Under the pieces are notes generated by a model. It saw nothing but the letters and a program-made list of their open reading frames with translations. It was not told the origin of the DNA and ran no database searches. A stretch of DNA of 21,435 nucleotides from a virus. Within the stretch, counting starts at the first letter, position 1, and every line of letters begins with the position of its first letter. This document shows, in pieces, positions 76 to 18,651 of the stretch. Made by a program: the position numbers and the translations under genes. The stretch lies in IMG/VR virus record IMGVR_UViG_3300042923_001273, positions 1 to 21,435 of that record; one strand, 5' to 3'.

Positions 76-121
76 ACCTGCGGCGTATTCTCTGAACCTT
101 TTAAGTTTGGAGAGTACCCGC

Positions 122-1699
122 ATGTCTTTGAAGTTTGATGGAATCCCGGAACCCCGGTCTTTTGGTGCTGTACTTTATACCGATGGCGGGTCCCGGTTAC
201 AAGAAGGCTTGGCGTCGTGGGCGATACACGGGTACTTGTATCCCATGGACGAGCCCAAGAAAATCCGCTTCACGAAAAAGAAAGATGCCCCAAGCAACAC
301 CGGTTACGTTGACGGTCGCCTGGGGCAGCTTACTAAAGAATTCCCTGTGGGCGACCGTACCCTCGCCGATGGCGTAAAACGGGAAATGTTCACCTACCCC
401 AACAACCCGCAATCACTGCCGGTGGAACCGACCCATTTCCTTGACTGGTATGGTGGCCGTCCCAACGCGACAGTGAACGCAATGGAGTTGCTGGCCATGA
501 AAAAGGCCTTCGACTTCATCTTAGAAGCTGAACCGGTTCAGGTGTGTATTATCGCTGATTCACAACTGACCCTGAAGACGCTGTTGAGAGACTTTTACAC
601 TTGGGAAGCACGAGGCGGGATTAAGTCCGACGGTGCCCCGGCGAAGAACTGGGAGCTGTGGGTCGAAACCATTGCCGTGTACCGCGCTGTCCAGGCCAAG
701 AACATTGATGTGCGCTTTGCGTGGGTCAACAGTCATACTGGCGACCCAGGTAATGAGAAGGCGGATTACAACGCCAACAAAGGAATGATTCTGGAACTCC
801 GGGCCTCTGGAGAAGATCGGTATATTACGAAAGTTCCCAAAGAGTATACGGTCAAGACCAAACTCAATTGTCGTCTGATGGAACAGCGTTGGTGGTATGG
901 CCTCTGCGACAGAAAATCGAGCGACTATGGCATTGACGGTAAACACGTCTACTTCTTTGGAAACCATGGTAAAGCCGAAGAGGAGGAGGACCTGATTGGG
1001 AAGAACACCGCGACGTCCAAAATATCGGTGCTGGTGACTTCCGAACCTGAACCTGTCCTGGACCTCCTGGCAACGAAGCTTGAGAAGCGTTACTACCGTG
1101 GCGTCTCTGAGGTGACTCTGGGCTACCTGGAGAACATCCTGAAAACAGAGCGATATGCCGCGTTTCTGGAAGAAGGCGAGGACATCCTCTACCCGGTACC
1201 GGATAAACCGTTGTTGATTTCACCGGACAAGGTCCCGATTCTCAAGACCTTACAGCCGGCGTACCACGGGTTTACTCTGGTCGAGCATCTGTCAGCCCAT
1301 GTAAGACTGATAGAGCAATACCTGCGCGGGGACGATGCCCTGGTTCTGACGGACCTCACCGACCTGGTGTACCGTCAGCTCGAAGAGAAGTCGAAAGTGG
1401 TCTACAAAACACAGCCGCAGATTGACCCACCGAATAACACGGTGACCTTTCCGCTGAATTACTGTGTAGACTTGAAAACAGTCGAGACCCGTAACGTGAA
1501 GTTGAAGATGGGGGCAGACATTCCCACTCGCAACACGCTGGCCGCAGTGAGTGGACCCAGCACGAAAGTGTGGGGTGTTACCTACCGTGAAGCCGCAACC
1601 GCGTTTCGCTACTTCACCCTCATCGAGACAGAAGAAGGTTTGCTTCTGACAGCTTCGTTAAAGTCTAATCAGATTATTTTACTTGGAAAACGCGTATGA
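122..1699 (+). CDS. RNase HI-like protein with a long unknown C-terminal region
   Basis: This 525-residue protein has an RNase HI fold in its first about 225 residues. All four acidic catalytic positions are visible: D21 in YTDGG, E122 in AMELLA, D146 in IADSQ and D215 in GNEKAD. H205 lies in the usual VNSHTG loop. RNase HI cuts the RNA strand of RNA-DNA hybrids, so a role in removing primers or R-loops during phage replication is likely. A stretch of about 60 residues between D21 and E122 is longer than in a minimal enzyme. Residues 226-525 match nothing I recognise. ATG 122 is chosen because GGAGAG at 109-114 is a well-spaced ribosome binding site; an in-frame TTG at 107 lacks one. The stop overlaps the next start as ATGA. 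The RNase H call is firm; the job of the C-terminal half is unknown. Confidence 0.88.
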   Translation: MSLKFDGIPEPRSFGAVLYTDGGSRLQEGLASWAIHGYLYPMDEPKKIRFTKKKDAPSNTGYVDGRLGQLTKEFPVGDRTLADGVKREMFTYPNNPQSLPVEPTHFLDWYGGRPNATVNAMELLAMKKAFDFILEAEPVQVCIIADSQLTLKTLLRDFYTWEARGGIKSDGAPAKNWELWVETIAVYRAVQAKNIDVRFAWVNSHTGDPGNEKADYNANKGMILELRASGEDRYITKVPKEYTVKTKLNCRLMEQRWWYGLCDRKSSDYGIDGKHVYFFGNHGKAEEEEDLIGKNTATSKISVLVTSEPEPVLDLLATKLEKRYYRGVSEVTLGYLENILKTERYAAFLEEGEDILYPVPDKPLLISPDKVPILKTLQPAYHGFTLVEHLSAHVRLIEQYLRGDDALVLTDLTDLVYRQLEEKSKVVYKTQPQIDPPNNTVTFPLNYCVDLKTVETRNVKLKMGADIPTRNTLAAVSGPSTKVWGVTYREAATAFRYFTLIETEEGLLLTASLKSNQIILLGKRV

Positions 1700-3041: not shown

Positions 3042-4469
3042 ATGTTTTTCTTAGACCCTATTGTGGGCGGCGGGATTCCTAAAGAAGCGGCCGCTGATGC
3101 TTCTACACCTAAACTGAACGTCGGCTGCCTGTTCGACCACTTCTCTGGTCGTTATACCAAAGGCGCCCACGGCGAAATGATTCTCAACGGCGGGATGTCA
3201 CACATCTCGGCGGTAGTGGGTAAAAACAACCAGTACAAGTCAACCACCGCAGACTACTTCATGTCGGCGGCGCAGAACAACTACTACGATGTGGGCAACA
3301 GCTTCTACAACGAGACCGAAGGGTCCCGTGATATGGAAGGTCTGGAGTTCCGCATGAAGCACTTCGAGCGCAACCGCGCGGAAGGGATAATCGGCAACCC
3401 GAAATTCTTCCTGACCAACATGAACAAGATGTCCGGGGAAGAGTACTGGTCAGCCCGCCGTAAATACGGTGAGGCCAAAGTCAAGGCCAAAGGGTCGATG
3501 TTGGAAACCCCGTTCCTGAACGCAGACGGTACCTTTATCAAAGTCGTGGCGCCCACGTTTGAAGAGTGGGACTCCTGGTCCATGACCACCTTCGGGGCGA
3601 TTGAAGACAAGGTCTCCAAGCTGGATGTCGATGACTCGAAGAACAACATGCTCTTCGCCAACGACGGGATGTACAAAACCCGTATCCTGATGCAGATGCC
3701 AGGGGAAAATGGCCGTACCGGATTCTACTCGATGATGACCGCACACATCGGGAAGAAGATGAACATGGACATGAACGCGCCGCCTGAGAAAATCATGGCG
3801 TACATGCAGGCGGACTCGGTGCTGAAGAACGCCACCGAGAAGTTCACCTATATCCCAAACAACATGTGGTTGTGCCACTCCCAGAAGCCTCACCTGGACG
3901 ACAACGGGATTCCGGTGTACGGCCGTGGCCAGATGGGCGAGAAGTTCGAGAAAGACATGGTGGAAGTGACCATCATTAACCTGCGTGGTAAGTTCGGCCA
4001 ATCCGGTGCCCCGTTTAAAGCGCTGTACTCCCAGACCGAAGGCCTGCTACCGCACCTGACCCAGCTGCACTATATCCGTGCTGGGAACAAGTACTACGGC
4101 ATGGACACCAACACGCAGAACATGTCATTGGACTTCCTGCCGGACGTGAAGTTCACCCGTAACAGCATTCGCGGTAAGATTGACGAGAACTACAAGCTGC
4201 GTCGTGCCCTGCAACTGACAGCTGACCTCTGCCAGATGAAGAACGTGATGTGGTACCTGGGCGATGCCATCAACATGCCGCCACCGGATATCTTTACCAA
4301 AATCAAAGAGCGTGGCTATGACTGGGACGAAATCCTGGGCGGTACTCGTAGCCACTGGCAATTCAACGGCGTGAAGGAAGACAAACACTTCTTGTCCGCC
4401 TACGACCTCCTGCGCATGGCCACCGGGGAATACCACCCGTACTGGATGGCACCGCTAAAGAAAAAGTGA
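3042..4469 (+). CDS. UvsX/RecA-like recombination ATPase
   Basis: The 475-residue product carries a variant Walker A loop, G60-KNNQY-K66-S67-T68, in which an aromatic residue replaces the last glycine. T4 UvsX has the same kind of substitution (GPSKSFKS, from memory). About 20 residues later, DVGNSFYNETEGSRD matches the position of the UvsX/RecA strand that ends in the catalytic glutamate (LFYDSEFG in T4). Further on, FYSMMTAHIGKKMN and NMWLCHSQKP resemble later core strands of RecA-family ATPases. UvsX proteins coat single-stranded DNA and carry out strand exchange for recombination-dependent replication and repair. The length exceeds T4 UvsX (about 390 residues). The start has AAAGGA upstream. 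It leads a run of genes ending at 7039. The RecA-fold call rests on these motifs; the exact UvsX role is inferred. Confidence 0.72.
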   Translation: MFFLDPIVGGGIPKEAAADASTPKLNVGCLFDHFSGRYTKGAHGEMILNGGMSHISAVVGKNNQYKSTTADYFMSAAQNNYYDVGNSFYNETEGSRDMEGLEFRMKHFERNRAEGIIGNPKFFLTNMNKMSGEEYWSARRKYGEAKVKAKGSMLETPFLNADGTFIKVVAPTFEEWDSWSMTTFGAIEDKVSKLDVDDSKNNMLFANDGMYKTRILMQMPGENGRTGFYSMMTAHIGKKMNMDMNAPPEKIMAYMQADSVLKNATEKFTYIPNNMWLCHSQKPHLDDNGIPVYGRGQMGEKFEKDMVEVTIINLRGKFGQSGAPFKALYSQTEGLLPHLTQLHYIRAGNKYYGMDTNTQNMSLDFLPDVKFTRNSIRGKIDENYKLRRALQLTADLCQMKNVMWYLGDAINMPPPDIFTKIKERGYDWDEILGGTRSHWQFNGVKEDKHFLSAYDLLRMATGEYHPYWMAPLKKK

Positions 4470-4795: not shown

Positions 4796-5293
4796 ATGGG
4801 CAAAATCTACGTGATGGTGTCGGGCAGCCGACACTATACCCGTTACTTTGAGTTCGCGAAGAAGATGGACCACATTCTGGCGAACTTCAATAAGAAAGAC
4901 ATCGTGTTTGTGGAAGGCGAAGCTGCCGGGACAGACTACCTGGGGTTCCTGTACGCGTTACGGCGGGGTCTGAAACACATCGGTTACCCCGCAGATTGGG
5001 ACGAACACGGCAAGAGTGCCGGCTACATCCGCAACGTCGAAATGATGGAAGTGGCCCAGTTCTGTATTGCTTTCTGGGACGGGAAGAGTCGGGGTACCCA
5101 ACACGTCGTGCGTAACTGCCATCGTTATGACGTAAGCCTTCGCACTATTCAAATTGAACCGGAGAACCGACATGCAAAACAGAGAAAAGGTCACGGCGCT
5201 TGGCGTAAAGTTGATGGAGCAACTCTTTCCCGGTACCGGAAACGGCGCGCTGCTCAAGGAGGACCTCGACCGACTGAGCAACCAGGAGTTTGA
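4796..5293 (+). CDS. SLOG-family (YspA/DUF2493-like) nucleotide-binding protein with overlapping C-terminal extension
   Basis: The first about 120 of 165 residues show the SLOG Rossmann-like pattern: an N-terminal strand ending in VSGSR (8-12), the glycine loop EGEAAGTD (40-47), the signature SAGYIRN (74-80), and FWDGKSRGT (93-101). SLOG proteins bind nucleotides or nucleotide-derived ligands; phage and bacterial members are suspected in NAD- or nucleotide-signal handling, but the ligand here is unknown. ATG 4796 has GAGG at a good distance. The core ends near residue 120, yet the frame continues 45 residues as an arginine- and lysine-rich tail. Almost all of that tail lies inside the start of the next gene in another frame, an overlap of 122 bases. 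The tail may be a read-through product of a lost stop rather than a functional domain. Confidence 0.82.
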   Translation: MGKIYVMVSGSRHYTRYFEFAKKMDHILANFNKKDIVFVEGEAAGTDYLGFLYALRRGLKHIGYPADWDEHGKSAGYIRNVEMMEVAQFCIAFWDGKSRGTQHVVRNCHRYDVSLRTIQIEPENRHAKQRKGHGAWRKVDGATLSRYRKRRAAQGGPRPTEQPGV

Positions 5294-5849
5294 TGCCCGC
5301 ATGAAAGACTGGGCCGTGGGCAAAGGGAGTCCGGTCGCCGTGCTGCCCAACCTCACCGAGAACGTGGTGACCGTGGACCACTTAAAGGCCGTGGCGGATA
5401 AGTGGAACGTCAACATGTACCAACGCATCCTGATGTCAGACCCGGATACCGGCCGTGAGTTTTTGTCACCGCTGCGGTATATGGTGCTGAAGATTGGGGT
5501 GGTGCGGTTGTCCCAGATGCAGGAAACCAAGCAGAGTATCCCGGAAGACAACATGTCCGTGGATGAACTCACCGGGCAGGTCACGGGGGATTCGAAAGGG
5601 TCCCGTCTCTCCTTCCCGGAACTCGGTAACCTGGCCTCGGGCGAACACGACAACGGGATTGTGGAATTGATTTCCGTGCGTGGGGGTGATGAAGCGGCCA
5701 ACCGCCAGCTGGAGTATGACATTGAAACCACCGGCGTTGGGTCGTTAGCGCGTGCCCAGGCGGCCGGAAGCGGCACCACCGTGAACCGTAACTTCGCCAC
5801 CTTCCTGCGCGTGGCGCACCTGGATACCACGCTGGATAAAGGACGTTAA
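5172..5849 (+). CDS. RNA polymerase beta-subunit C-terminal-like protein (part of a phage multisubunit RNA polymerase)
   Basis: The 225-residue product lines up by eye with the C-terminal part of bacterial RNA polymerase beta (RpoB). RILMSDPDTGREFLSP (85-100) matches LFDGRTGEKFDRP. RYMVLKIGVVRLSQM (102-116) matches GYMYMLKLNHLVDDKM. GQVTGDSKGSRLSFPELGNL (125-144) matches the [20 protein letters not shown] region. ELISVRGGDE (155-164) matches the TVKSDD region. In phiKZ-like phages beta and beta-prime are split over several genes, so a stand-alone piece of this size is expected. The subunit would join other phage pieces outside this window to form a rifampicin-insensitive polymerase. Whether it belongs to the virion or the non-virion enzyme cannot be told. 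ATG 5172 is chosen for GGAGA at 5161-5165; an upstream TTG has no such site. It overlaps the SLOG gene by 122 bases. Confidence 0.72.
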   Translation: MQNREKVTALGVKLMEQLFPGTGNGALLKEDLDRLSNQEFDARMKDWAVGKGSPVAVLPNLTENVVTVDHLKAVADKWNVNMYQRILMSDPDTGREFLSPLRYMVLKIGVVRLSQMQETKQSIPEDNMSVDELTGQVTGDSKGSRLSFPELGNLASGEHDNGIVELISVRGGDEAANRQLEYDIETTGVGSLARAQAAGSGTTVNRNFATFLRVAHLDTTLDKGR

Positions 5850-5850
5850 G

Positions 5851-6363
5851 ATGAACATCGTGTTGGAAGTCGCCAATCGGGCGATGCAGTATCGCCAGCG
5901 GGCGTCGGAGATTTGGTACCGGGAAAACAGCGAAGGGGAGCTGGCCCCGGAGTACAAAACCCTGGACAGTTTCCTGACGCAATTTGAAGCCGGCTCGCAA
6001 CTGCTGGAATTGATGGTGATTGATAACCTGCGGGAACTGGCGGAGAAAGTGTTTGGGGATATCATCACCCAGAACTTTGTGCTGGACTTGCAGTACTACG
6101 TCTTCTCTATCTACCCGGCGGAAGACGTGAAGGAGTTGGTGCGGCGCCTGGCATTTGGACTCTGTCTGCAACGGACGCCAAACTACGAAACGCCCGCTGA
6201 GAGTGTGGCCCCGGATGACAACACGGCCTACAGTTTAACCGAGGCAGACGTGCAGGCGGTGTTGACGGCCAACTTCTGGGTGGTCGGGTTACTGCTGCTG
6301 CCGTTGGCCCAAGGGACGGAGGTACCGCAGAATGGAACCAATTCGCCTGCTTCTGTCTCTTGA
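5851..6363 (+). CDS. Hypothetical protein downstream of the RNA polymerase fragment
   Basis: This encodes 170 residues; its ATG follows the polymerase-fragment stop by one base, with AAGGA upstream. The first about 120 residues look helical (QLLELMVIDNLRELAEKVFG). Near the C-terminus a leucine-rich stretch (FWVVGLLLLPLAQG, about residues 142-155) is followed by a low-complexity tail rich in N, S and P. I recognise no family. The gene overlaps the next one by 32 bases, so the pair is probably translated together. A link to the phage polymerase is suggested only by position. Confidence 0.75.
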   Translation: MNIVLEVANRAMQYRQRASEIWYRENSEGELAPEYKTLDSFLTQFEAGSQLLELMVIDNLRELAEKVFGDIITQNFVLDLQYYVFSIYPAEDVKELVRRLAFGLCLQRTPNYETPAESVAPDDNTAYSLTEADVQAVLTANFWVVGLLLLPLAQGTEVPQNGTNSPASVS

Positions 6364-7039
6364 TGATGTCTACGACACCCGCTTCTCCTTAATGAACCAG
6401 CTGAATGTTCACGCGGCGATTGCCGCGGTGAAAGCCGGGTACGGGACGCGGGTATCGGACCACGTTATCTGGCGCTCGTTGAAAATCAGTGAAGAGGCCT
6501 GGCGGGCCAAGTACCGCAAACGGGATGACCAGGTGCTGATGCGGTCAGTGCGCAGTAAGATGTACAACCTGTTGGTGGAATTGCACCAGGACGTTGAACG
6601 GGTGCCCCGCGACTTACCGGGGGTGCCCAACATCGAACTGACGGTGAACGAATGGCCGTATGCGCTGTCCAAGGAAGTGCAGGATGCCCAGCGGGAGGTG
6701 ATGCACCATTTCCTGCCGCCCAATGTCCCGATTCGGTTTATCCGGCGTAACCCCAAGCAATTGACGCCCCGCTTTCTGGCGGAGTCGTACAGCCACGTCA
6801 TCATGTACGATTTCACCGAGTGGTGTTTATTGCATGAGAACACCGAGGAACACGGTAACCTGCTCAGTGTGCAGTTTATCCTGCCGTCCTTGTTGCGGGA
6901 GCTGCCGACGGTTGAGGACGGCGAGGCGTTTAAGGAACCGATTGCTGAAGTGGGTATTATGGGTATGGTAGAGCGGAGCCTCGCCCCGGTGTTAGACCTG
7001 CGCTTTATCGAGGTCGACCACTGGAACGTGCCGAACTAA
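6332..7039 (+). CDS. Hypothetical protein, last gene of the UvsX/RNA polymerase operon
   Basis: This encodes 235 residues. ATG 6332 lies inside the previous gene in a different frame and has a strong ribosome binding site, GGAGG, at 6318-6322. The protein has a mixed helix and strand character with a basic central part (RRNPKQLTPRF near residue 136). No catalytic motif, signal peptide or membrane segment is apparent. It ends six bases before a perfect 14-bp hairpin. I do not recognise the family. Confidence 0.78.
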   Translation: MEPIRLLLSLDDVYDTRFSLMNQLNVHAAIAAVKAGYGTRVSDHVIWRSLKISEEAWRAKYRKRDDQVLMRSVRSKMYNLLVELHQDVERVPRDLPGVPNIELTVNEWPYALSKEVQDAQREVMHHFLPPNVPIRFIRRNPKQLTPRFLAESYSHVIMYDFTEWCLLHENTEEHGNLLSVQFILPSLLRELPTVEDGEAFKEPIAEVGIMGMVERSLAPVLDLRFIEVDHWNVPN

Positions 7040-8280: not shown

Positions 8281-9063
8281 ATGAGAAACGGTCTACCAAT
8301 GCGATTCGCCCTCGGCATGGAATTTCATGACGAAGACGATACCGATGTCAGTGGGCTGAATATCCTTGCACTCATGTTCCGGAAGATAAAAGGGGATTTA
8401 AACATATCCTCTCGCGTTTGGTCGACGATGATGACGCGGTATCTGAAAGACCCCCGCAACGAAGTGACGCAAACGTCACGTGGGCGGTCCTCTGAACGCA
8501 GTAATCTGACGCGGGCTCTCGGCGCACCCGGCATGACCTTCAAGAACTTTGTCAAGGGCATTCGGTTACTCGACCCGAAAGAAGTGCAGTTGATTCTGGA
8601 ACTGGAGTTCCCGGATGAGACGCGGGTACGACATACCACGACCATCAACCAGGAAGCGCTGTACATGCACTTCCACAACGAGAAGTATCCGGAGCGACAG
8701 AACGTGCTCGCCACTATGTTCCGTGCGGTGAAAAACGTCATGGGCATTGGGGAAGAGAAATGGCGTGAACTGATGCAGGCGTACCTGGACAATCCCGCAA
8801 ACGGCTTTGTAGAGCTTTACGAAGCGGAATCGGGCGTAAAGACCAAGGTCACTGACAGCGGTAAACGCAGTTCCGAGCGCAGTAACCTGACGCGCGGTCT
8901 GGGGAATCCAGACATGACAATAAGGGTTTTCACCAAAGGCCTGAAAGTACTGAATCCAACGAACATTCATTTGACAACGAAGTTAGACTTTGGGAACGGC
9001 CGCACCAGTTCCCATACTGTCTCTGTTGTCGGCAGTGCCCTCGTAGCAGTGGGGGACGACTAA
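8281..9063 (+). CDS. Unknown protein made of two copies of one domain
   Basis: The 260-residue product contains an internal duplication. Copy 1 is about residues 27-120 and copy 2 about 141-250. Both open with N-[IV]-L-A-x-M-F-R, both have a tryptophan-led helix (WSTMMTRYL, WRELMQAYL), and both carry the signature RSSERSNLTRxLGxPxMT, then FxKGxxxLxP (69-99 and 196-226). Each ends in a strand-like stretch with a histidine (RVRHTT, RTSSHTV). The basic helix followed by LTRxLG could be a nucleic-acid-binding helical unit, but that is inference. The gene follows 7743-8258 by 22 bases and ends at a terminator, so the two form one unit, probably early. No known family is recognised. Confidence 0.8.
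   Translation: MRNGLPMRFALGMEFHDEDDTDVSGLNILALMFRKIKGDLNISSRVWSTMMTRYLKDPRNEVTQTSRGRSSERSNLTRALGAPGMTFKNFVKGIRLLDPKEVQLILELEFPDETRVRHTTTINQEALYMHFHNEKYPERQNVLATMFRAVKNVMGIGEEKWRELMQAYLDNPANGFVELYEAESGVKTKVTDSGKRSSERSNLTRGLGNPDMTIRVFTKGLKVLNPTNIHLTTKLDFGNGRTSSHTVSVVGSALVAVGDD
8359..9030 (+). repeat. Duplicated domain-coding segments within one gene
   Basis: 8359-8640 and 8701-9030 encode the two copies of the domain described for the gene at 8281. The best-kept DNA is the stretch coding SSERSNLTR, with GAACGCAGTAATCTGACGCG in copy 1 and GAGCGCAGTAACCTGACGCG in copy 2. Copy 2 has about 13 extra residues before this signature. Divergence elsewhere shows an old duplication. Confidence 0.75.
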
Positions 9064-10594: not shown

Positions 10595-11728
10595 ATGCGT
10601 AAAGTCACTGAAGTTGAGCAGACCTTTGAGAAGTACGGTATTCAAAGCCAAGGCGATGAAATCCTGTTTAACCAGACGTTCTTTCTCCACAGCGACGATG
10701 TCCAGACCGAAGCCAACATCAACAGCTACGTGATGGGTGAGAGCAAGAACACCCAGCTCTTTGACAGCCTCACCAACCTGAATGGGCTGAAACCGTTCCA
10801 GTGGGCGACCCGGTCCTTACAGCACGTCGTTAAGACCCAGCCCCATGACATGTACTGTCCCGAACCTGCGTCGTTCACTGACGAGTACGTGGACCTGCTG
10901 AAACTGTTAAACTGTGTCGGGCATTTCACGGGCATGAACGTGACGTTCTACGGGACCCCGCACAAAGGGGAGCAAACGCTGCGCATTGATGTCCCCAGCG
11001 ATGTAGAAAACCCCGCCGCCTTTGTTAAGAAGGTGCAGGAACTCTACCAGGCCAATCGCCGTAACGTGGCCTACCTGAACGCCACCGCGGTGTGCTGCAC
11101 CGTCAACGGGATTGACACGCTCTACCGCATCATGTGGTCGCTGAACCGCCTGTTGTTGTCCGCGTGCAAAGACGCCGAGAATTTTGTTCCGGGTCAGGTC
11201 TCACTGTTCACTCCCCGCCTGACCAAACTGAAAACGGTCAAGGTGGTAGGGCACATCGACCAATACTGCGGCGGTCTCCACACGGAATATCTGCTGTATG
11301 CCAACGCGGAGACCTTCTCCCAGTGGATGCACCGGTTGAGCAGAGGCGGTCACCAACGGCCAACGCTGTACACCGAGCGCCTCACGCAAAACGTAGAGTT
11401 TGTACGCCGTCAGCTGTGTGAAGTACTGGAACGTCGCCTCACCCCCGACGACTACCGGGATTTCACCGCCACCTGGGTGTTGAACAACTGTGAAGCAGGT
11501 CCCACGGAACACCACACCGGGTACTTCATCCAGTTGAAGCGCCTGTACGATGAAAGTGATAAACACTTACCGTTCGCGAAGTGGGTGAAAGCCTGTTTAA
11601 AGGGCGACCAGGAAGAGGGTGACACGAGCGCTTTCACGCTCGCCTGGGATGCCCACCTTAAACTGCACCCGGGTTCCGTCAACGACATGAGTAAGTTCAC
11701 CCAGCTTCTGGAAGAGTTAGTCCAATAA
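10595..11728 (+). CDS. Hypothetical 377-residue protein
   Basis: The start ATG 10595 has AAAGGAAAAG upstream. The protein appears globular, with a mixed helix and strand pattern and seven or more cysteines (for example AVCCTVNG around residues 166-173 and DQYCGGLHTEYLLYANAE). The cysteines do not form an obvious zinc motif. No signal peptide or membrane segment is visible. It stands alone between a terminator-like hairpin upstream and another downstream, so it is probably a single-gene unit. I do not recognise the family. Confidence 0.82.
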   Translation: MRKVTEVEQTFEKYGIQSQGDEILFNQTFFLHSDDVQTEANINSYVMGESKNTQLFDSLTNLNGLKPFQWATRSLQHVVKTQPHDMYCPEPASFTDEYVDLLKLLNCVGHFTGMNVTFYGTPHKGEQTLRIDVPSDVENPAAFVKKVQELYQANRRNVAYLNATAVCCTVNGIDTLYRIMWSLNRLLLSACKDAENFVPGQVSLFTPRLTKLKTVKVVGHIDQYCGGLHTEYLLYANAETFSQWMHRLSRGGHQRPTLYTERLTQNVEFVRRQLCEVLERRLTPDDYRDFTATWVLNNCEAGPTEHHTGYFIQLKRLYDESDKHLPFAKWVKACLKGDQEEGDTSAFTLAWDAHLKLHPGSVNDMSKFTQLLEELVQ

Positions 11729-11738
11729 CAGCAGGTTT

Positions 11739-11766
11739 AGCAGGGTGGGCAACCGCCCTGCTTTAT
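11739..11766 (+). terminator. Terminator hairpin after the 377-residue gene
   Basis: AGCAGGGTGG (11739-11748) pairs with CCGCCCTGCT (11753-11762), including one T-G wobble, around a GCAA loop, followed by a weak TTTAT. The T tract is short, so leakage is possible. Confidence 0.7.
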
Positions 11767-11788
11767 GCCGGTTCCAATCAATCTAAAG

Positions 11789-11802
11789 TATATATCCTAG
11801 TG
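11789..11802 (+). promoter_or_regulatory. Candidate early promoter, TATATATCC-TAGTG
   Basis: TATATATCCTAGTG lies about 20-30 bases before ATG 11820 and resembles TATATTACTGTAGTG at 7684-7698: both start TATAT and end TAGTG. It would drive the six-gene run 11820-14363. The match to the phiKZ TATATTAC core is imperfect. Confidence 0.4.
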
Positions 11803-11819
11803 GTGAAATAGGAACACTA

Positions 11820-12164
11820 ATGAGTCCTATCCATAAACTCTTGCTGTTATTCCACCACCAGGGAAACACGTTTACCATGTTACACACTCACCCCGCTCGC
11901 GAGATTAACTTCATGCAAGCTTTAGCCAATGGCACACTCGCCAGTATTCTGGGTGCCGACGATGACACCGCCGTGTTCAACGGCAAAGATTACCAGCAGT
12001 ACAGCACCGCCGTCCTTTACGTGATGCGCAAAGGGCTGGAAAGCAAAGTTCGAGAAATGACCCGTGGTATCCCAGGCGTCGCAGAGTACGGCGTACCCAA
12101 AGCTGTCCACGATGAACTGCGTGCCGTGAAGCACGCCTTACGCAACAAAGAGTTCTACTACTAA
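11820..12164 (+). CDS. Small unknown protein, first gene of the six-gene operon
   Basis: This encodes 114 residues from ATG 11820, with AGGA six bases before it. An alternative ATG at 11877 has a weaker, more distant site but a TTTACCATG context like two later genes, and would remove 19 hydrophobic N-terminal residues. The body starts NFMQALANGTLASILGADD and ends KHALRNKEFYY. This layout is shared with the gene at 12538 (DFMQHTYSELSVMLSA to KIKAGEFAY), so the two look like diverged paralogues. The function is unknown; its place directly behind a candidate early promoter suggests an early gene. Confidence 0.72.
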   Translation: MSPIHKLLLLFHHQGNTFTMLHTHPAREINFMQALANGTLASILGADDDTAVFNGKDYQQYSTAVLYVMRKGLESKVREMTRGIPGVAEYGVPKAVHDELRAVKHALRNKEFYY

Positions 12165-12173
12165 GGAGTATTG

Positions 12174-12524
12174 ATGAAAACAATTCGGATATTTGACCCA
12201 TCTGGACAGACCCCGCGGCTCTGGGACCTGGCGCCGTTGGCAGAGTTTGACCCCCGGGACCGGGAAGAGGATGGCGGTGTCCGGACGGTGTATGACGGTG
12301 ACAACTACATGGACCTGACCTGCCAGGAGTTGGTGGTGGTCATCCAGGGGCTGGAGCCGCAGAGTGAACAGTGGCGCATCGCGATGAATGCGTACACGGT
12401 AAAAGACCGCCTGGGCTATACCCGTATCGTGGAGAACGAGCGCCATATCCCAGAACCTGTTGAACCTTTCCATTCTCACAACGAAGGCTTAGAACGTCTG
12501 CGTCGTGCTTTAAAGACCAAATAA
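12174..12524 (+). CDS. Small unknown protein, possible distant paralogue of its neighbours
   Basis: This encodes 116 residues. ATG 12174 is preferred to TTG 12171 because AAGGAG at 12163-12168 is correctly spaced. Residues around 46-62 read NYMDLTCQELVVVIQGL, which matches the [FY]MxxTxxELxV pattern of the gene at 12538. The N-terminal part (FDPSGQTPRLWDLAPLAEF) is not shared. The C-terminus is basic (GLERLRRALKTK). It starts nine bases after the previous stop, in the same operon. Confidence 0.75.
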   Translation: MKTIRIFDPSGQTPRLWDLAPLAEFDPRDREEDGGVRTVYDGDNYMDLTCQELVVVIQGLEPQSEQWRIAMNAYTVKDRLGYTRIVENERHIPEPVEPFHSHNEGLERLRRALKTK

Positions 12525-12537
12525 GGAAACCGACCCT

Positions 12538-12774
12538 ATGTCCACTGCTACCATCCCAACCGTGTGGAACGGCCATGACTTTATGCAACACACCTACTCG
12601 GAGCTGAGCGTGATGCTCTCCGCGGCCCGGGATGAAGCCATTCTTCAGCAACACCGTTTGTTCCAGCGTAACCCCGACAACATCACGGCCTACAACGCAC
12701 TCCCGTACCGCAAACCGGACGTGATTCATGCGGCCATGATTGCCAAAATTAAAGCCGGCGAATTCGCCTACTAA
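12538..12774 (+). CDS. Small unknown protein of the FM-motif family
   Basis: This encodes 78 residues, with AAGGA upstream of ATG 12538. It carries DFMQHTYSELSVMLSA at 14-29 and ends KIKAGEFAY. Both regions resemble the gene at 11820, and the first also resembles the gene at 12174. It looks fully helical. Tandem diverged copies of small proteins are typical of early host-takeover regions in large phages, but no activity can be named. Confidence 0.75.
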   Translation: MSTATIPTVWNGHDFMQHTYSELSVMLSAARDEAILQQHRLFQRNPDNITAYNALPYRKPDVIHAAMIAKIKAGEFAY

Positions 12775-12813
12775 TTCTCTTACCCCGTGGCTTGACCACT
12801 AAAGGATTTTACC

Positions 12814-13110
12814 ATGCAAATCGAACTGAAAACCGTTGCCGTTCTGACCCTGTCTGCCAAAGAAGCCGAGCACGCCCTGACCTCCCTGGAAGCTCAACTG
12901 GCCGGTCCCCGTACCGCGTACGTGATTCTGAACTCCGAGTCCTACCGTAACCTGTGGGCGCAGCTGACCCGTCGCCCTATCAGCTACACCCTGACCTGGA
13001 CAGAAGGGTTACGGGTGCGGGCCTACCTGGCGCAGTATGTGGAAAAAGACAAGAAGCATGACGTGCGCATTACCCCGAACGTGCTGCGTGATATGCCTAT
13101 CTACCGTTAA
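12814..13110 (+). CDS. Small hypothetical protein
   Basis: This encodes 98 residues (MQIELKTVAV start) behind AAAGGATTTTACCATG, a leader almost identical to that at 13501-13517. The sequence suggests a compact helix and strand fold with a basic, aromatic middle (YRNLWAQLTRRPISYTLTW). No known family. It is fourth in the operon. Confidence 0.75.
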   Translation: MQIELKTVAVLTLSAKEAEHALTSLEAQLAGPRTAYVILNSESYRNLWAQLTRRPISYTLTWTEGLRVRAYLAQYVEKDKKHDVRITPNVLRDMPIYR

Positions 13111-13124
13111 CAGGGAGCCTGACC

Positions 13125-13499
13125 ATGAAGCTACCGGAAAAGGACCAGCACCAGTATATTGAAACACTGCAAAGCTGGCGCAACAATGTTGAGGTGGCCA
13201 CCAAGTTTGCCCGCAACATTGAAGCCAAACTGGTTCATGCCAAAGGCCGGGGGAGTCCGTCCCTGGTCAAAGCGTTACACGCGATGCACCCGTTGATTAT
13301 TGACGCGTATGTCGACCTGGTGCGCAAGGGCGTCTATGACCCCAGCCCAGAAGACATGCGTCGCATCATTGCGAAAGCGGCCTCACCAACGCAGGCCACT
13401 ATCGTACACCGCCACCGGGATTGGATAGTGAACCACTACTACCTCCAGTGTACCCGGGTTTACCAACAAATTCTGTTTCCAAAACCAACTCATTCTTAA
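13125..13499 (+). CDS. Small basic hypothetical protein
   Basis: This encodes 124 residues, with AGGGAG well placed before ATG 13125 and a gap of 14 bases from the previous stop. It appears helical and basic (KFARNIEAKLVHAKGRGSPS around residues 26-45) with an aromatic end (HRDWIVNHYYLQCTRVYQQ). Nucleic-acid or protein binding is possible; nothing specific is recognised. Confidence 0.75.
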   Translation: MKLPEKDQHQYIETLQSWRNNVEVATKFARNIEAKLVHAKGRGSPSLVKALHAMHPLIIDAYVDLVRKGVYDPSPEDMRRIIAKAASPTQATIVHRHRDWIVNHYYLQCTRVYQQILFPKPTHS

Positions 13500-13514
13500 C
13501 AAGGGGATTTTACC

Positions 13515-14363
13515 ATGATGCTGGACACTGCCACCTCACTGAACGAAATGATGACTAAGCAACTTAACGACCTGAAGAACACCCTTGATTACACCCGGAT
13601 GTTTCGGGCCATCACGCATCTTCCGACTAACATGCCTGACGGCCCCGACCGACTGAAAGAAGTGGTCTCTGCCACCATCGACAGCGTCCTGGACTCACCG
13701 CATAACGCGCACATTAACGTGGTTCGTTTTAGTGTGCGCCAGCAGTTCCCGGAGATTCACGACCGTTTTATCAATAAAATCGCGGAGGAGATAAGCGATG
13801 TGTTGAACTCGTCTCTTATGAAAATCGTGGCGCCGGGATATGTCATTACCAAGGACATCCTGTCAACCGAGATGGAGTTCATCAGCCAGTACGCCACCAA
13901 AACGGATCTCCAGCAATTATTAGACGAAGACCTGAAAGCCAAAGGGTTCGACGACGCGACTGTGTCCGCCTACTCCGGTCGCTTAACGGAGTGGTTACGT
14001 TATGTACTGGAATGTGCGAACACGGGTCAGGCACCGGACCTGAGCGAAGAACTCGACCTGGCGCTCGCCGGAGAACCGTTACTGAAAGATTACTTCGTGA
14101 CGGCACTCGCCTCCGAAGTGCGCAAAGCCATGCACTCTCGCCGTCAGGGTGCGCTGCAAGACTTCGGCAGCAGCCTGGTGAAACCGGTGCGTCAGCCACA
14201 ATCTGAACCCGGTGCCAACACCGTGAGTGAAAGCTTTACCTTCACCAGCGTCGAAGCTAACCGCTTACGTGAAATGCTCTATAACCTCCAACTCGACAGC
14301 AATGAAACGCTGAAGGTGACCCGGACCGATGAAGGTCTGGTTATCCAGTTCCTGTTGAAGTAA
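13515..14363 (+). CDS. Hypothetical 282-residue helical protein, last gene of the operon
   Basis: ATG 13515 follows AAGGGGATTTTACC; a second ATG comes directly after it. The protein is largely helical. A linker near residues 220-240 (VKPVRQPQSEPGANTVSES) separates the main body from a small C-terminal domain of about 45 residues that ends NETLKVTRTDEGLVIQFLLK and looks like a beta hairpin after a helix. No known family is recognised. It closes the operon at the terminator at 14370. Confidence 0.78.
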   Translation: MMLDTATSLNEMMTKQLNDLKNTLDYTRMFRAITHLPTNMPDGPDRLKEVVSATIDSVLDSPHNAHINVVRFSVRQQFPEIHDRFINKIAEEISDVLNSSLMKIVAPGYVITKDILSTEMEFISQYATKTDLQQLLDEDLKAKGFDDATVSAYSGRLTEWLRYVLECANTGQAPDLSEELDLALAGEPLLKDYFVTALASEVRKAMHSRRQGALQDFGSSLVKPVRQPQSEPGANTVSESFTFTSVEANRLREMLYNLQLDSNETLKVTRTDEGLVIQFLLK

Positions 14364-14368
14364 CTTCA

Positions 14369-14399
14369 GAGGGCGGTCTTTACCGCCCTTTTCTTTTTT
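14369..14399 (+). terminator. Rho-independent terminator
   Basis: AGGGCGGT (14370-14377) and ACCGCCCT (14382-14389) pair around CTTT and are followed by TTTCTTTTTT. It ends the six-gene operon. Confidence 0.92.
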
Positions 14400-14423
14400 G
14401 GCCAGTGAAGAAAGGAATGGATC

Positions 14424-14825
14424 ATGGCTTTAGATTTTCCCCTACGCCTTGAAAGTCTTGCTGACCAACCGTCGCAAGACAGTGCGTTGATTTGTATCGA
14501 GCACCGGGTGTTGATAACGTTAGACTACTGGAGTGCGATGCGAAATATGTTCCGGGTGGGCACGCCGGAATACGCTCGAATCTTAGACCAACAAACCGAA
14601 ATCTTTGGCGATGCCATGGAGATGTGGTTTCAGGAACTGCGCCGCACCAAGATTATCGCGGTCGGGGATATGTACTTCAATCCGATGGCGGTCGTTGAAG
14701 AAGCGGGTTACGGTCTGACGGTGGCGGTGACCCGTTCGATGATTACCACCGTGGCCCATCGTCAGGTGGGTGACGATTACGAACTGCATTTACTGTGGAA
14801 TTCAAAACTTAATGAGGGGGTTTAA
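14424..14825 (+). CDS. Small hypothetical protein, first of a three-gene unit
   Basis: This encodes 133 residues, with AAAGGA eight bases before ATG 14424. It starts MALDFPLRLESLAD and has a helical middle (YARILDQQTEIFGDAMEMWFQELRRTK) followed by strand-like segments (IIAVGDMYFNPMAVVEEAG). No domain is recognised. Its stop is directly before the start of the exported-protein gene, so translation of the two is probably coupled. Confidence 0.75.
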   Translation: MALDFPLRLESLADQPSQDSALICIEHRVLITLDYWSAMRNMFRVGTPEYARILDQQTEIFGDAMEMWFQELRRTKIIAVGDMYFNPMAVVEEAGYGLTVAVTRSMITTVAHRQVGDDYELHLLWNSKLNEGV

Positions 14826-14826
14826 A

Positions 14827-15333
14827 ATGGGTATGTCAATGAAAGCGGTAACCGGGATTCTGTTGGTGTTAGTGGTGTGGGCCATGCAAACGTTACGGGC
14901 TGACGCCTCAGAAGCGGTACAAGGGCGCAACGGCTCCATCGTCTTCTCCTGTCCGGTGGAAGGCGGCAAGTTCGCGCAGGTCCTGGTGAAGGACAAGATG
15001 CTTCAGTACAAGTTCGGGACAGACCCCCGCCAACCTGAGATTGCGGTCCCTGCCGACCCGCGTGACCAGAGCCAGGTTCACTATGCGTACACCGCGTACG
15101 CTAAAGGCGGTTCCCTGTACATTCGCTTTACCAACGGGGACTACAGCTACGTGGTCTACTCCGGGCAAGGCGAGGGCTGGGCACGCGAAGACATCACGGT
15201 GTTCAAAGGGCTGGACAAAGTGAAACGCATCAACTGTGTTAAGCAGGCCCGGAGCACAGCGGTGTATGACTTTATCGCTTACGGTAACGATGACAGTGCC
15301 AATGGGCTGGATATCGTATACGGACAACAGTAA
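14827..15333 (+). CDS. Small exported protein with signal peptide
   Basis: The 168-residue product starts at ATG 14827, behind GAGGGGG at the right distance. It has a clear Sec-type signal peptide: MGMSMK, then a hydrophobic core (ILLVLVVWAMQTL), then ADA at 25-27 as a cleavage site. The mature protein has two cysteines, C42 and C137, that could form a disulfide in the periplasm. The pattern, with a cysteine near the start, then YKFG, then SLYIRFTNGDYSYVVYSG and a final cysteine, reminds me of small exported proteins of unknown function in Gram-negative bacteria. The gene may therefore come from a host. Exported phage proteins often act in superinfection exclusion or lysis control; which applies here is unknown. 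Confidence 0.8.
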   Translation: MGMSMKAVTGILLVLVVWAMQTLRADASEAVQGRNGSIVFSCPVEGGKFAQVLVKDKMLQYKFGTDPRQPEIAVPADPRDQSQVHYAYTAYAKGGSLYIRFTNGDYSYVVYSGQGEGWAREDITVFKGLDKVKRINCVKQARSTAVYDFIAYGNDDSANGLDIVYGQQ

Positions 15334-15345
15334 CGCTGAGGAGCA

Positions 15346-15885
15346 ATGATGCCACGCTACAGTCAACGGGAGGAAGAACTCGCTACTTTCTTCTTACAGG
15401 GCCGGCAAGGTAATGTCCTCCTGGGGTTCTATTGCGGGTATTCCACCGAGGAGGTTGCGCACTTTCTGGTGAGCAGTACGATACGGGCGGACAAACACGT
15501 CGGGGCCAAAGTGATAGACCGGATTCCCTATTTCGCAGAATGGCGCGCCCTGCGAAACAAGCACCCGGTCGCCTGGCCGGTGGTACCGACCGTGAAGGAC
15601 TTCCATGAGGGCCTGGAGGCGGCGCGAGAACGTATCGCCGCAGCACGCATGGCAGAAGAGGACACCAGTACCCTGGCAGGCATTGAGAACGTTGCAGAAG
15701 CCGCAACCCATCAACGCAACGACGGGTATGAGTACACCACGTTCCACCGGGATGTGATACGGGATGTCGTGCAGTTGGCAGAGCGCTGCGGGTTACGGGT
15801 CACTGACCGTCCGGGTAAGTTACACGGTCGCCCCCAGACCTTTCGCCGACTGGATTTCCTGAATCTCCTGCCGGAGAACGAATAA
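15346..15885 (+). CDS. Hypothetical protein, last of the three-gene unit
   Basis: This encodes 179 residues, with GAGGAG upstream of ATG 15346; an ATG three bases later is an equal candidate. The protein looks helical: YSQREEELATFFLQGRQGN and YSTEEVAHFLVSS near the start read like short helices joined by a turn, as in DNA-binding helix-turn-helix units, but no family can be named. The C-terminus is basic (GLRVTDRPGKLHGRPQTFRRLDFL). It ends at a terminator. Confidence 0.75.
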   Translation: MMPRYSQREEELATFFLQGRQGNVLLGFYCGYSTEEVAHFLVSSTIRADKHVGAKVIDRIPYFAEWRALRNKHPVAWPVVPTVKDFHEGLEAARERIAAARMAEEDTSTLAGIENVAEAATHQRNDGYEYTTFHRDVIRDVVQLAERCGLRVTDRPGKLHGRPQTFRRLDFLNLLPENE

Positions 15886-16479: not shown

Positions 16480-18651
16480 TTAACCACGGTCCCCTTTGGA
16501 CAGGGCACTGAGTAACATCCCCCGGTTACCGTCAAACAGGGCGTTGACACGGGAACTCACCGAGAACCACTTGTTGAACGACGACATGTTGGTGTACCAG
16601 TTACGTTTGAGCTTGTCCATTTTGTAGACCTGCTCAGACAACCCACAACTGGCCAGGACCGACATGTAATCGCCCATAGACGAGTCCTGCGGGAACAGGA
16701 GCTTGTTCCACTGGGTGGGGTCAATCACGCGCCAGCCACTGATTTCGTTCATCGGCATGTGCACCACCGAGGAGAGGTCTTCAAAAGTACAGCGCAAGTT
16801 AATGCCGCGGTACTTCCCGGACTGACTCCACGGCGCATTGCTCACCCCACGTTCAATCTCCAGTGACTTAAAGAGGGCCAGACGACTCTGTCCACGCCCC
16901 CGACAATACCACTCACACAGGAACGGTGACCCGTAGGCGCCGGTGCCCTCCGAGCGCGGCAGGATACCCGCCAACATCATTATCATCGGCAGAATCTCGG
17001 TCTGGTAGCGACAGAGGTCATTGCCGTACGGTGCCCGCAGCTGCATCGTAAAGGATAACTGGTTGAACTGGGCTGACGACTCATCGTAGTGTTTCGGGAT
17101 ATCAACGAAGGCGTTACCGGCTAAGGCCCCCACCCCGGCAATGTGTAACGAGTCTGCGACCCCGGTGGCAATGTCCTTCACGAAGTTGGCAATCGCCCCG
17201 ATACCCGGGATATTAGACAAGTTACCGTCCGCCAGGGAGATACGCATGTTACGGTTGTTGGCAGACGTCGAGTTAAACGCCTGTCCCACGGTGGATTCCC
17301 GCGAGGAGTTCGAGAACGACTCCGACACCGAGTCCCGTCCGTCAATACGGAAGGTCACCCAGGCTGAACCGTCTTTCTGTGCCCCACGGAAGGTGGCCCA
17401 GGCCCCTTCGTAGTTTTCCGTACTGAAGAAGTCCTTGACCGTTTCGTAGGTGGAGACCAGCAACGACTCCGAACCCCCGCCTTGTGCCTGCGTCGCCGCA
17501 TCGGTGGCAGGTGCCGTGTTCTCTTCCGCAGTCTTGTTATCCGGGTTGGCCTCGGGTGCGGTGTTCTTCACGGCCACTGACGAGTTCGTGGCTTCTTCCC
17601 CGTCCGGACTGGTGGTGGTCCCTGATAACAACCGCCCATCCGTCTGCCCGTAGTAGGCGTTCAGGAAGTCTTCGGTGCTGGCGTACTCCGGTGTCATGGC
17701 TGCCGACATCACCCGTGACGCGGCCCCACCCTCAACCCACTGTCTGACGGCCTGCATCACACCGTTAGGGTTTCCTTGCTGCGCGGCGGCAATCCTATTC
17801 ACCCCTTCATTAAACGCGTTAGCGAGCCGCTGAGCGCGTGTAGCGACGGCATAGACATCAATGCCGGTCAACACCTTCCCGTCGTCGTCCCGGGACTTGT
17901 AAATGTCCGGGGCCATCTTGGCGTACATGTTGGCTTCGGCATCCGATGGCTGGAACTCTTTCTTGGCAATCGCACTGACCTGTTCCTGCGAAAGTTTCAT
18001 TGAGCCACCCGGGGTTAAGCCGGTCTGCTCAGCAAAGCGCATCCAGGACCCCGTGGACTTGGACGTCAGTTCCATGTTGGCGGCGATGGTGTTGGCCATG
18101 TCGTTGACGTACTTCCAGTAGGTCCCCATCATCGGCTTGAGGTAGGCAAAGCGGGTGCTGGTGACCTCGGTGAAGAACTTCCACGCGGTGCCAATCATAA
18201 TCAGCGGCAACAGGCGCAAACTGAACGCCCAGCCAATCGCTTTCCCGATAAAGGACCCGATGGTGTTGGCACGCCCGGTACGCACCAGACGGGAGTCATC
18301 GGCGTTGTAGAAGTTACCAAAGAAGCTGGTCAGGCTGTTGTACACCGGGATACCGTAACGGATGTGCACCAGGTTGGCGTTGTCGTCAATGGTTTCACTG
18401 TACCACCGGCCCATGCCCGGGGAATAGGGCATGTCTTTCTCGCGTTGCAGGATGTCCAGGTAACGGGGAGCAACCGGGTCCGCATTGTCACTCGGCTGCG
18501 GCGGGGGGTTCATGGCAAAGTTTTCCCCGAGACCGGTTCCCGTGTACTTGTAATACGCTGACGTGTAGTTGCGGTAGTACGTGTCTTCCGCGTTAATCGC
18601 ATTTTTGGGGAGCAAGTTAGATTGCCGCACCCAGCTGCTGTCTTTAATCAT
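16480..18651 (-). CDS. Large virion structural protein with a hydrophobic segment
   Basis: The 723-residue product starts at the reverse-strand ATG 18651, with GGAG eight bases upstream. A hydrophobic stretch at about 131-160 (IGWAFSLRLLPLIMIGTAW) could cross or enter a membrane. A low-complexity linker at about 344-393, rich in T, N, A and E with a repeated NTAP, divides the protein. The C-terminal part contains VDIPKHYDESSAQFNQLSF, then LRAPYGNDLCRYQ, then GSPFLCEWYCRG. I recall this order from large structural proteins of jumbo and SPO1-like phages (PkxWxxS, LxxPYGN, SPFL). It is read with the hydrolase-bearing virion gene upstream but is separated from it by a terminator hairpin. The structural role is likely; its exact place in the particle is unknown. 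Confidence 0.7.
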   Translation of the reverse strand: MIKDSSWVRQSNLLPKNAINAEDTYYRNYTSAYYKYTGTGLGENFAMNPPPQPSDNADPVAPRYLDILQREKDMPYSPGMGRWYSETIDDNANLVHIRYGIPVYNSLTSFFGNFYNADDSRLVRTGRANTIGSFIGKAIGWAFSLRLLPLIMIGTAWKFFTEVTSTRFAYLKPMMGTYWKYVNDMANTIAANMELTSKSTGSWMRFAEQTGLTPGGSMKLSQEQVSAIAKKEFQPSDAEANMYAKMAPDIYKSRDDDGKVLTGIDVYAVATRAQRLANAFNEGVNRIAAAQQGNPNGVMQAVRQWVEGGAASRVMSAAMTPEYASTEDFLNAYYGQTDGRLLSGTTTSPDGEEATNSSVAVKNTAPEANPDNKTAEENTAPATDAATQAQGGGSESLLVSTYETVKDFFSTENYEGAWATFRGAQKDGSAWVTFRIDGRDSVSESFSNSSRESTVGQAFNSTSANNRNMRISLADGNLSNIPGIGAIANFVKDIATGVADSLHIAGVGALAGNAFVDIPKHYDESSAQFNQLSFTMQLRAPYGNDLCRYQTEILPMIMMLAGILPRSEGTGAYGSPFLCEWYCRGRGQSRLALFKSLEIERGVSNAPWSQSGKYRGINLRCTFEDLSSVVHMPMNEISGWRVIDPTQWNKLLFPQDSSMGDYMSVLASCGLSEQVYKMDKLKRNWYTNMSSFNKWFSVSSRVNALFDGNRGMLLSALSKGDRG

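Follow-up and report, generated by a model that had tools for sequence, protein, structure and literature searches.

The window analysed here is a 21,435-base IMG/VR virus record, without further contigs, whose left half matches the genome of Erwinia phage PhiEaH1 gene for gene, in the same order and on the same strands. Its features are as follows (vRNAP, virion RNA polymerase; beta-N and beta-C, the N- and C-terminal pieces of a split beta subunit).

107 to 1699, plus strand: RNase H gene, syntenic with PhiEaH1 rnhA and phiKZ gp155 (PHROG 3265, synteny).
3042 to 4469, plus strand: UvsX-like recombinase gene, syntenic with phiKZ gp152 (PHROG 97; 73% to PhiEaH1).
4796 to 5293, plus strand: SLOG-type (YAcAr/DprA-like) gene, whose last 122 bases are also the first of the beta-C gene (Pfam PF10686, E 1.5e-10).
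5161 to 5164, plus strand: GGAG, a likely ribosome-binding site, seven bases 5′ of the beta-C ATG (read from the sequence).
5172 to 5849, plus strand: predicted vRNAP beta-C gene, ortholog of phiKZ gp149, SPN3US gp218 and PhiEaH1 gp171 (PHROG 3233; PhiEaH1 66%; phiKZ gp149 31%; hhalign to RpoB).
5256 to 5735, plus strand: RpoB-aligned stretch of beta-C, residues 29–188 against E. coli RpoB 1158–1312 (hhalign).
5562 to 5621, plus strand: family-conserved DELTGQVTGDSKGSRLSFPE, residues 131–150, counterpart of a 21-letter RpoB string (alignment of the family, hhalign).
5851 to 6363, plus strand: next gene after beta-C, occupying the place of phiKZ gp148 (33% to PhiEaH1 gp170; related to phiKZ by position only).
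6332 to 7039, plus strand: phiKZ gp147 ortholog (PHROG 3328, synteny).
16480 to 18651, minus strand: ortholog of PhiEaH1 gp148 and phiKZ gp182 (PHROG 3181; 70% to PhiEaH1).
18698 to 21430, minus strand: C-terminal part of a tail-associated endolysin (phiKZ gp181, PhiEaH1 gp147), truncated where the contig stops (PHROG 3201).

The left half reads RNase H, a small ORF, a reverse ORF, UvsX, a small ORF, the SLOG-type gene, beta-C, two genes and a reverse ORF, and includes the gene order uvsX, beta-C, gp148, gp147. At the right end the gp182- and gp181-like genes lie on the minus strand, as they do in PhiEaH1, where the gp180- and gp178-type vRNAP genes come next after the endolysin gene; the endolysin/chitinase-like domain of the window product occupies about residues 558–722. 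The interval 10595–15885 is a variable region, a run of small ORFs with no PHROG match among those scanned and few weak counterparts elsewhere in PhiEaH1. The product of 8281–9063 contains an internal repeat (RSSERSNLTRALGAPGMTFKNFVKGIRLLDP and RSSERSNLTRGLGNPDMTIRVFTKGLKVLNP), and PHROG 4910 matches two stretches of it.

The beta-C frame opens with an ATG at 5172 and its stop ends at 5849, giving a protein of 225 residues. Comparison with L003 (dN 0.128, dS 0.69) shows purifying selection on the gene; this 3.9 kb contig (85%), the sole close relative obtained from the IMG/VR search, does not extend far enough to reveal further parts of the phage. The tail of the SLOG/DprA-like gene and the start of beta-C share their 122 bases of DNA in different frames, and an open frame at the same relative position overlaps beta-C by 71–122 bases in L003, PhiEaH1, Moabite, FBKp24 and PCH45. 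In two of these the deposited beta-C start lies downstream of the conserved ATG, namely PhiEaH1 (L001, 20034–20678, ATG at 20001) and Moabite (L004, 6238–6678, ATG at 6001), and the proteins of both records probably lack part of their N-terminus.

With an E of 1.3e-66, residues 1–223 of the product give a full-length match to PHROG 3233, 'RNA polymerase beta subunit'; the model of this family also matches somewhere in the genomes of E. coli, Thermus and Deinobacterium that served as controls. Homologs were found in 272 phage records, with PhiEaH1 the best at 66% identity over the whole length, and the homolog-bearing phages among the matches listed are giant (>200 kb) phages of Erwinia, Pseudomonas, Serratia, Klebsiella, Salmonella, Vibrio and others. 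In phiKZ, PHIKZ149 is annotated as an RNA polymerase beta subunit and structural head protein; it is flanked by counterparts of rnhA, uvsX and gp147, and the window protein is therefore taken to be the ortholog of phiKZ gp149 and SPN3US gp218. Sequence and gene order together mark the 5172–5849 product as a syntenic ortholog of phiKZ gp149 and PhiEaH1 gp171. It is an ordinary member of a known family, the role and split of which have already been described; what is added here is a new sequence in a contig related to PhiEaH1. The preliminary description of this DNA had held that such a gene is easily left as a hypothetical protein, which is true of many GenBank records ('hypothetical' or 'virion structural') but not of PHROGs and RefSeq, where it is labelled RNA polymerase beta subunit.

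The same description had recognized by eye the last part of RpoB, with its TGE-F-P, YMLKL and GQRFGEME regions, and these motifs proved to be real and colinear. Beta-C presents DPDTGREFLSP, YMVLKIGVVRL and LTGQVTGDSKGSRLSFPEL in RpoB order, the counterparts in RpoB being DGRTGEQFERP, YMYMLKLNHLV and a 22-letter string respectively. Most of the conserved QRFGEME string has indeed been replaced, as had been observed, and in its place the gp149 family carries the specific sequence DxLTGQxTGxSKGSxxSxPE. Single-sequence Pfam and PDB searches with beta-C returned no RpoB and chance matches only (nitrohydrolase, thioredoxin), and a search of the 21 kb contig with PF00562 gave no match. A profile of 14 orthologs had E. 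coli RpoB 1156–1310 as its top PDB matches (E 0.014), whereas with 52 sequences the HMMER profile no longer found RpoB in the PDB. When the 52-sequence profile was aligned by hhalign with a profile of RpoB 900–1342, residues 29–188 matched E. coli RpoB 1158–1312 with an E of 1.6e-5 and a score of 44.3, while 40 column-shuffled profiles scored at most 24.1 and the reversed profile 14.1. Each sequence method on its own gives modest support for the relationship. The AlphaFold2 model of beta-C (mean pLDDT 76.7, pTM 0.41, with low-confidence segments at 110–127 and 140–144) retrieved RNA polymerases in all 50 of the Foldseek matches listed, the best being chain C of the AR9 non-virion polymerase (E 7.5e-3, probability 0.94); no match reached E 0.001 or better and TM-scores were low, as expected for a piece modelled outside its complex. 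The profile and structure-prediction searches, both proposed as checks in the preliminary description, agree with its reading.

The piece was also said to lack the catalytic lysines, and no GDK-x7-K motif was found in the 225-residue protein. In E. coli RpoB these lysines lie in GDKMAGRHGNK (residues 1063–1073); in the phages the motif is found in the gp178-like partner, as GDKGVVANQMK at 1375–1385 of the 1451 residues of phiKZ gp178 and as GDKLVVGNQLK at 1428–1438 of the 1504 residues of PhiEaH1 gp145. In hhalign the end of gp178 matches RpoB (E 0.0024) up to about RpoB 1109, and beta-N therefore ends just before the region that beta-C matches; with the catalytic lysines at the very end of gp178, the two pieces are thus complementary. 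In the non-virion enzyme gp71-73 carries the catalytic lysines, so that beta is split elsewhere (PMC8287921), and PhiEaH1 gp008, a gp71-73 ortholog of 765 residues, has its own lysine motif at 406. That the beta splits of the virion and non-virion polymerases differ is already published (PMC7598289). PHROG 3295, the non-virion beta-C family of gp71-73, has no match in the window protein; a profile built from two sequences of the end of non-virion beta-C, too shallow to serve as a test, gave no significant alignment with either RpoB or the gp149 family.

Whether another beta C-terminal piece makes this one redundant, a point on which the preliminary description had made its reading depend, was examined in 22 related records of 206–325 kb because the 21 kb contig is too short for a full subunit set. 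The PHROG 3233 gene is single-copy in 22 of 22, and all 22 also have the gp178 family (beta-N) and a separate gp71-73 family. Each relative has a separate non-virion beta-C and a beta-N ending before the region, neither of which makes the gp149-type piece redundant, and this supports the vRNAP beta-C assignment. The beta-N (gp178) and beta-prime (gp180, gp80, gp176) genes are not present within the window; the full set of further beta and beta-prime pieces that had been suggested for a search was found in PhiEaH1, which has orthologs of gp178, gp180, gp80 and gp176 (vRNAP) and of gp71-73 and gp74 (non-virion). By analogy with these relatives, the phage of the window would be expected to encode the other vRNAP subunits as well. 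The beta-N gene is interrupted near profile position 1050–1073 in seven of the 22 phages (G002, G005, G007, G009, G010, G015, G016), with stops between the halves in some and an open frame in others, and this shared site looks like recurrent introns or inteins; in G006, G008 and G014 interruptions lie near positions 294–411 or 574.

Published work on the orthologs bears directly on function. SPN3US gp218 (222 residues) was listed as the vRNAP beta-C by Thomas et al. 2016 (PMC5105663), and particles of an SPN3US beta-N mutant are missing every vRNAP subunit, gp218 included (PMC5105663). A gp218 amber mutant reported in 2017, in which all five subunits are lost, identifies the gene as essential (PMC5694885). 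Precipitation of tagged phiKZ gp180 also brings down gp149 (PMC10612078), and the beta-C orthologs of both phages are packaged in the virion (PMC5105663, PMC10612078). No vRNAP structure was found in the literature searched.

Three other explanations were weighed. Virion and non-virion beta-C are both split C-terminal pieces of a phage beta subunit, and the best Foldseek match is to the AR9 non-virion enzyme, which would suit a counterpart of gp71-73. We rejected this assignment as highly improbable given the length of 225 residues, the missing GDK-x7-K, a full-length match to PHROG 3233 and none to 3295, and the gp149 synteny of the gene; moreover, PhiEaH1 has, as a separate gene, a gp71-73 ortholog of 765 residues that itself carries a lysine motif, and the two families are distinct genes in 22 of 22 relatives.

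A virion structural protein derived from an RNA polymerase that has lost its role in transcription would account for the 'virion structural protein' label of many records and for the replacement of most of the QRFGEME string. This purely structural reading was likewise rejected, being marginally less probable still: the phiKZ ortholog co-precipitates with gp180 (PMC10612078), that of SPN3US is lost from virions along with the rest of the vRNAP subunits (PMC5105663), and beta-N stops short of the beta-C region, so that the enzyme would otherwise be without it. That the resemblance to RpoB is a coincidence and the protein something else accords with the weak single-sequence scores, yet profile, fold and published evidence converge on the same RpoB stretch, and the hhalign match with its shuffled and reversed controls contradicts a chance origin, for which the likelihood is negligible.

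We therefore favour, with a probability of about 0.96, a reading in which the window protein belongs to the multisubunit vRNAP of a jumbo phage of phiKZ type, close to PhiEaH1, and is its beta-C subunit. The earlier proposal, a C-terminal piece of a split beta of phiKZ type, is borne out and can be narrowed, as an ortholog of phiKZ gp149, to the virion enzyme. Homology, conservation, synteny and the complementarity of the beta pieces in relatives come from this analysis, while packaging, complex membership and essentiality are taken from the phiKZ and SPN3US papers; the protein of this uncultivated phage would have the same function as its orthologs. In such a scheme, the bacterial beta subunit would be divided into a gp178-like beta-N, ending just past the catalytic-lysine segment, and a beta-C that would contribute the final ~225 residues, among them the TG-EF, YM-LK and QRFGEME regions. 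Beta-C would assemble with beta-N and three beta-prime pieces (gp180, gp80 and gp176 orthologs), and the vRNAP containing it would be packaged in the head and then ejected along with the DNA, where beta-C may take part in early-gene transcription independent of the host enzyme. The stretch replacing QRFGEME (D-LTGQ-TG-SKGS--S-PE) is conserved across the gp149 family, and the loop 110–144 has low model confidence; that they mark a vRNAP-specific joining of beta, or a refolding after passage through the tail, absent in cellular enzymes, is a speculative and rather unlikely suggestion. The gene places the contig firmly among those phages of phiKZ type that carry in an RNA polymerase of their own, and it enlarges by one sequence a subunit family already described, that of a five-piece polymerase without alpha subunits.

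Among known proteins, PhiEaH1 gp171 (YP_009010224.1, Iapetusvirus) is closest, sharing gene order and 66% identity over the full length; its deposited start lies 33 bases past the conserved ATG, and it is otherwise the same protein. The vRNAP beta-C of phiKZ, gp149, has 224 residues, is likewise placed after uvsX and aligns end to end with the window protein, although at 31% identity and with a gene start that no SLOG-type gene overlaps. SPN3US gp218, the 222-residue product of an essential gene, is homologous over its full length but is only ~24% identical and has a short deletion in its N-terminal half. The C-terminal region of E. coli RpoB (1158–1312) is colinear with beta-C, but there it is a segment within one chain of 1342 residues and retains the 18-letter conserved string that is mostly replaced here. 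The non-virion beta-C of phiKZ (gp71-73) and AR9 is also a split C-terminal piece of a phage beta subunit and provides the nearest solved fold, but it is about three times longer than the window protein and includes the catalytic lysines.
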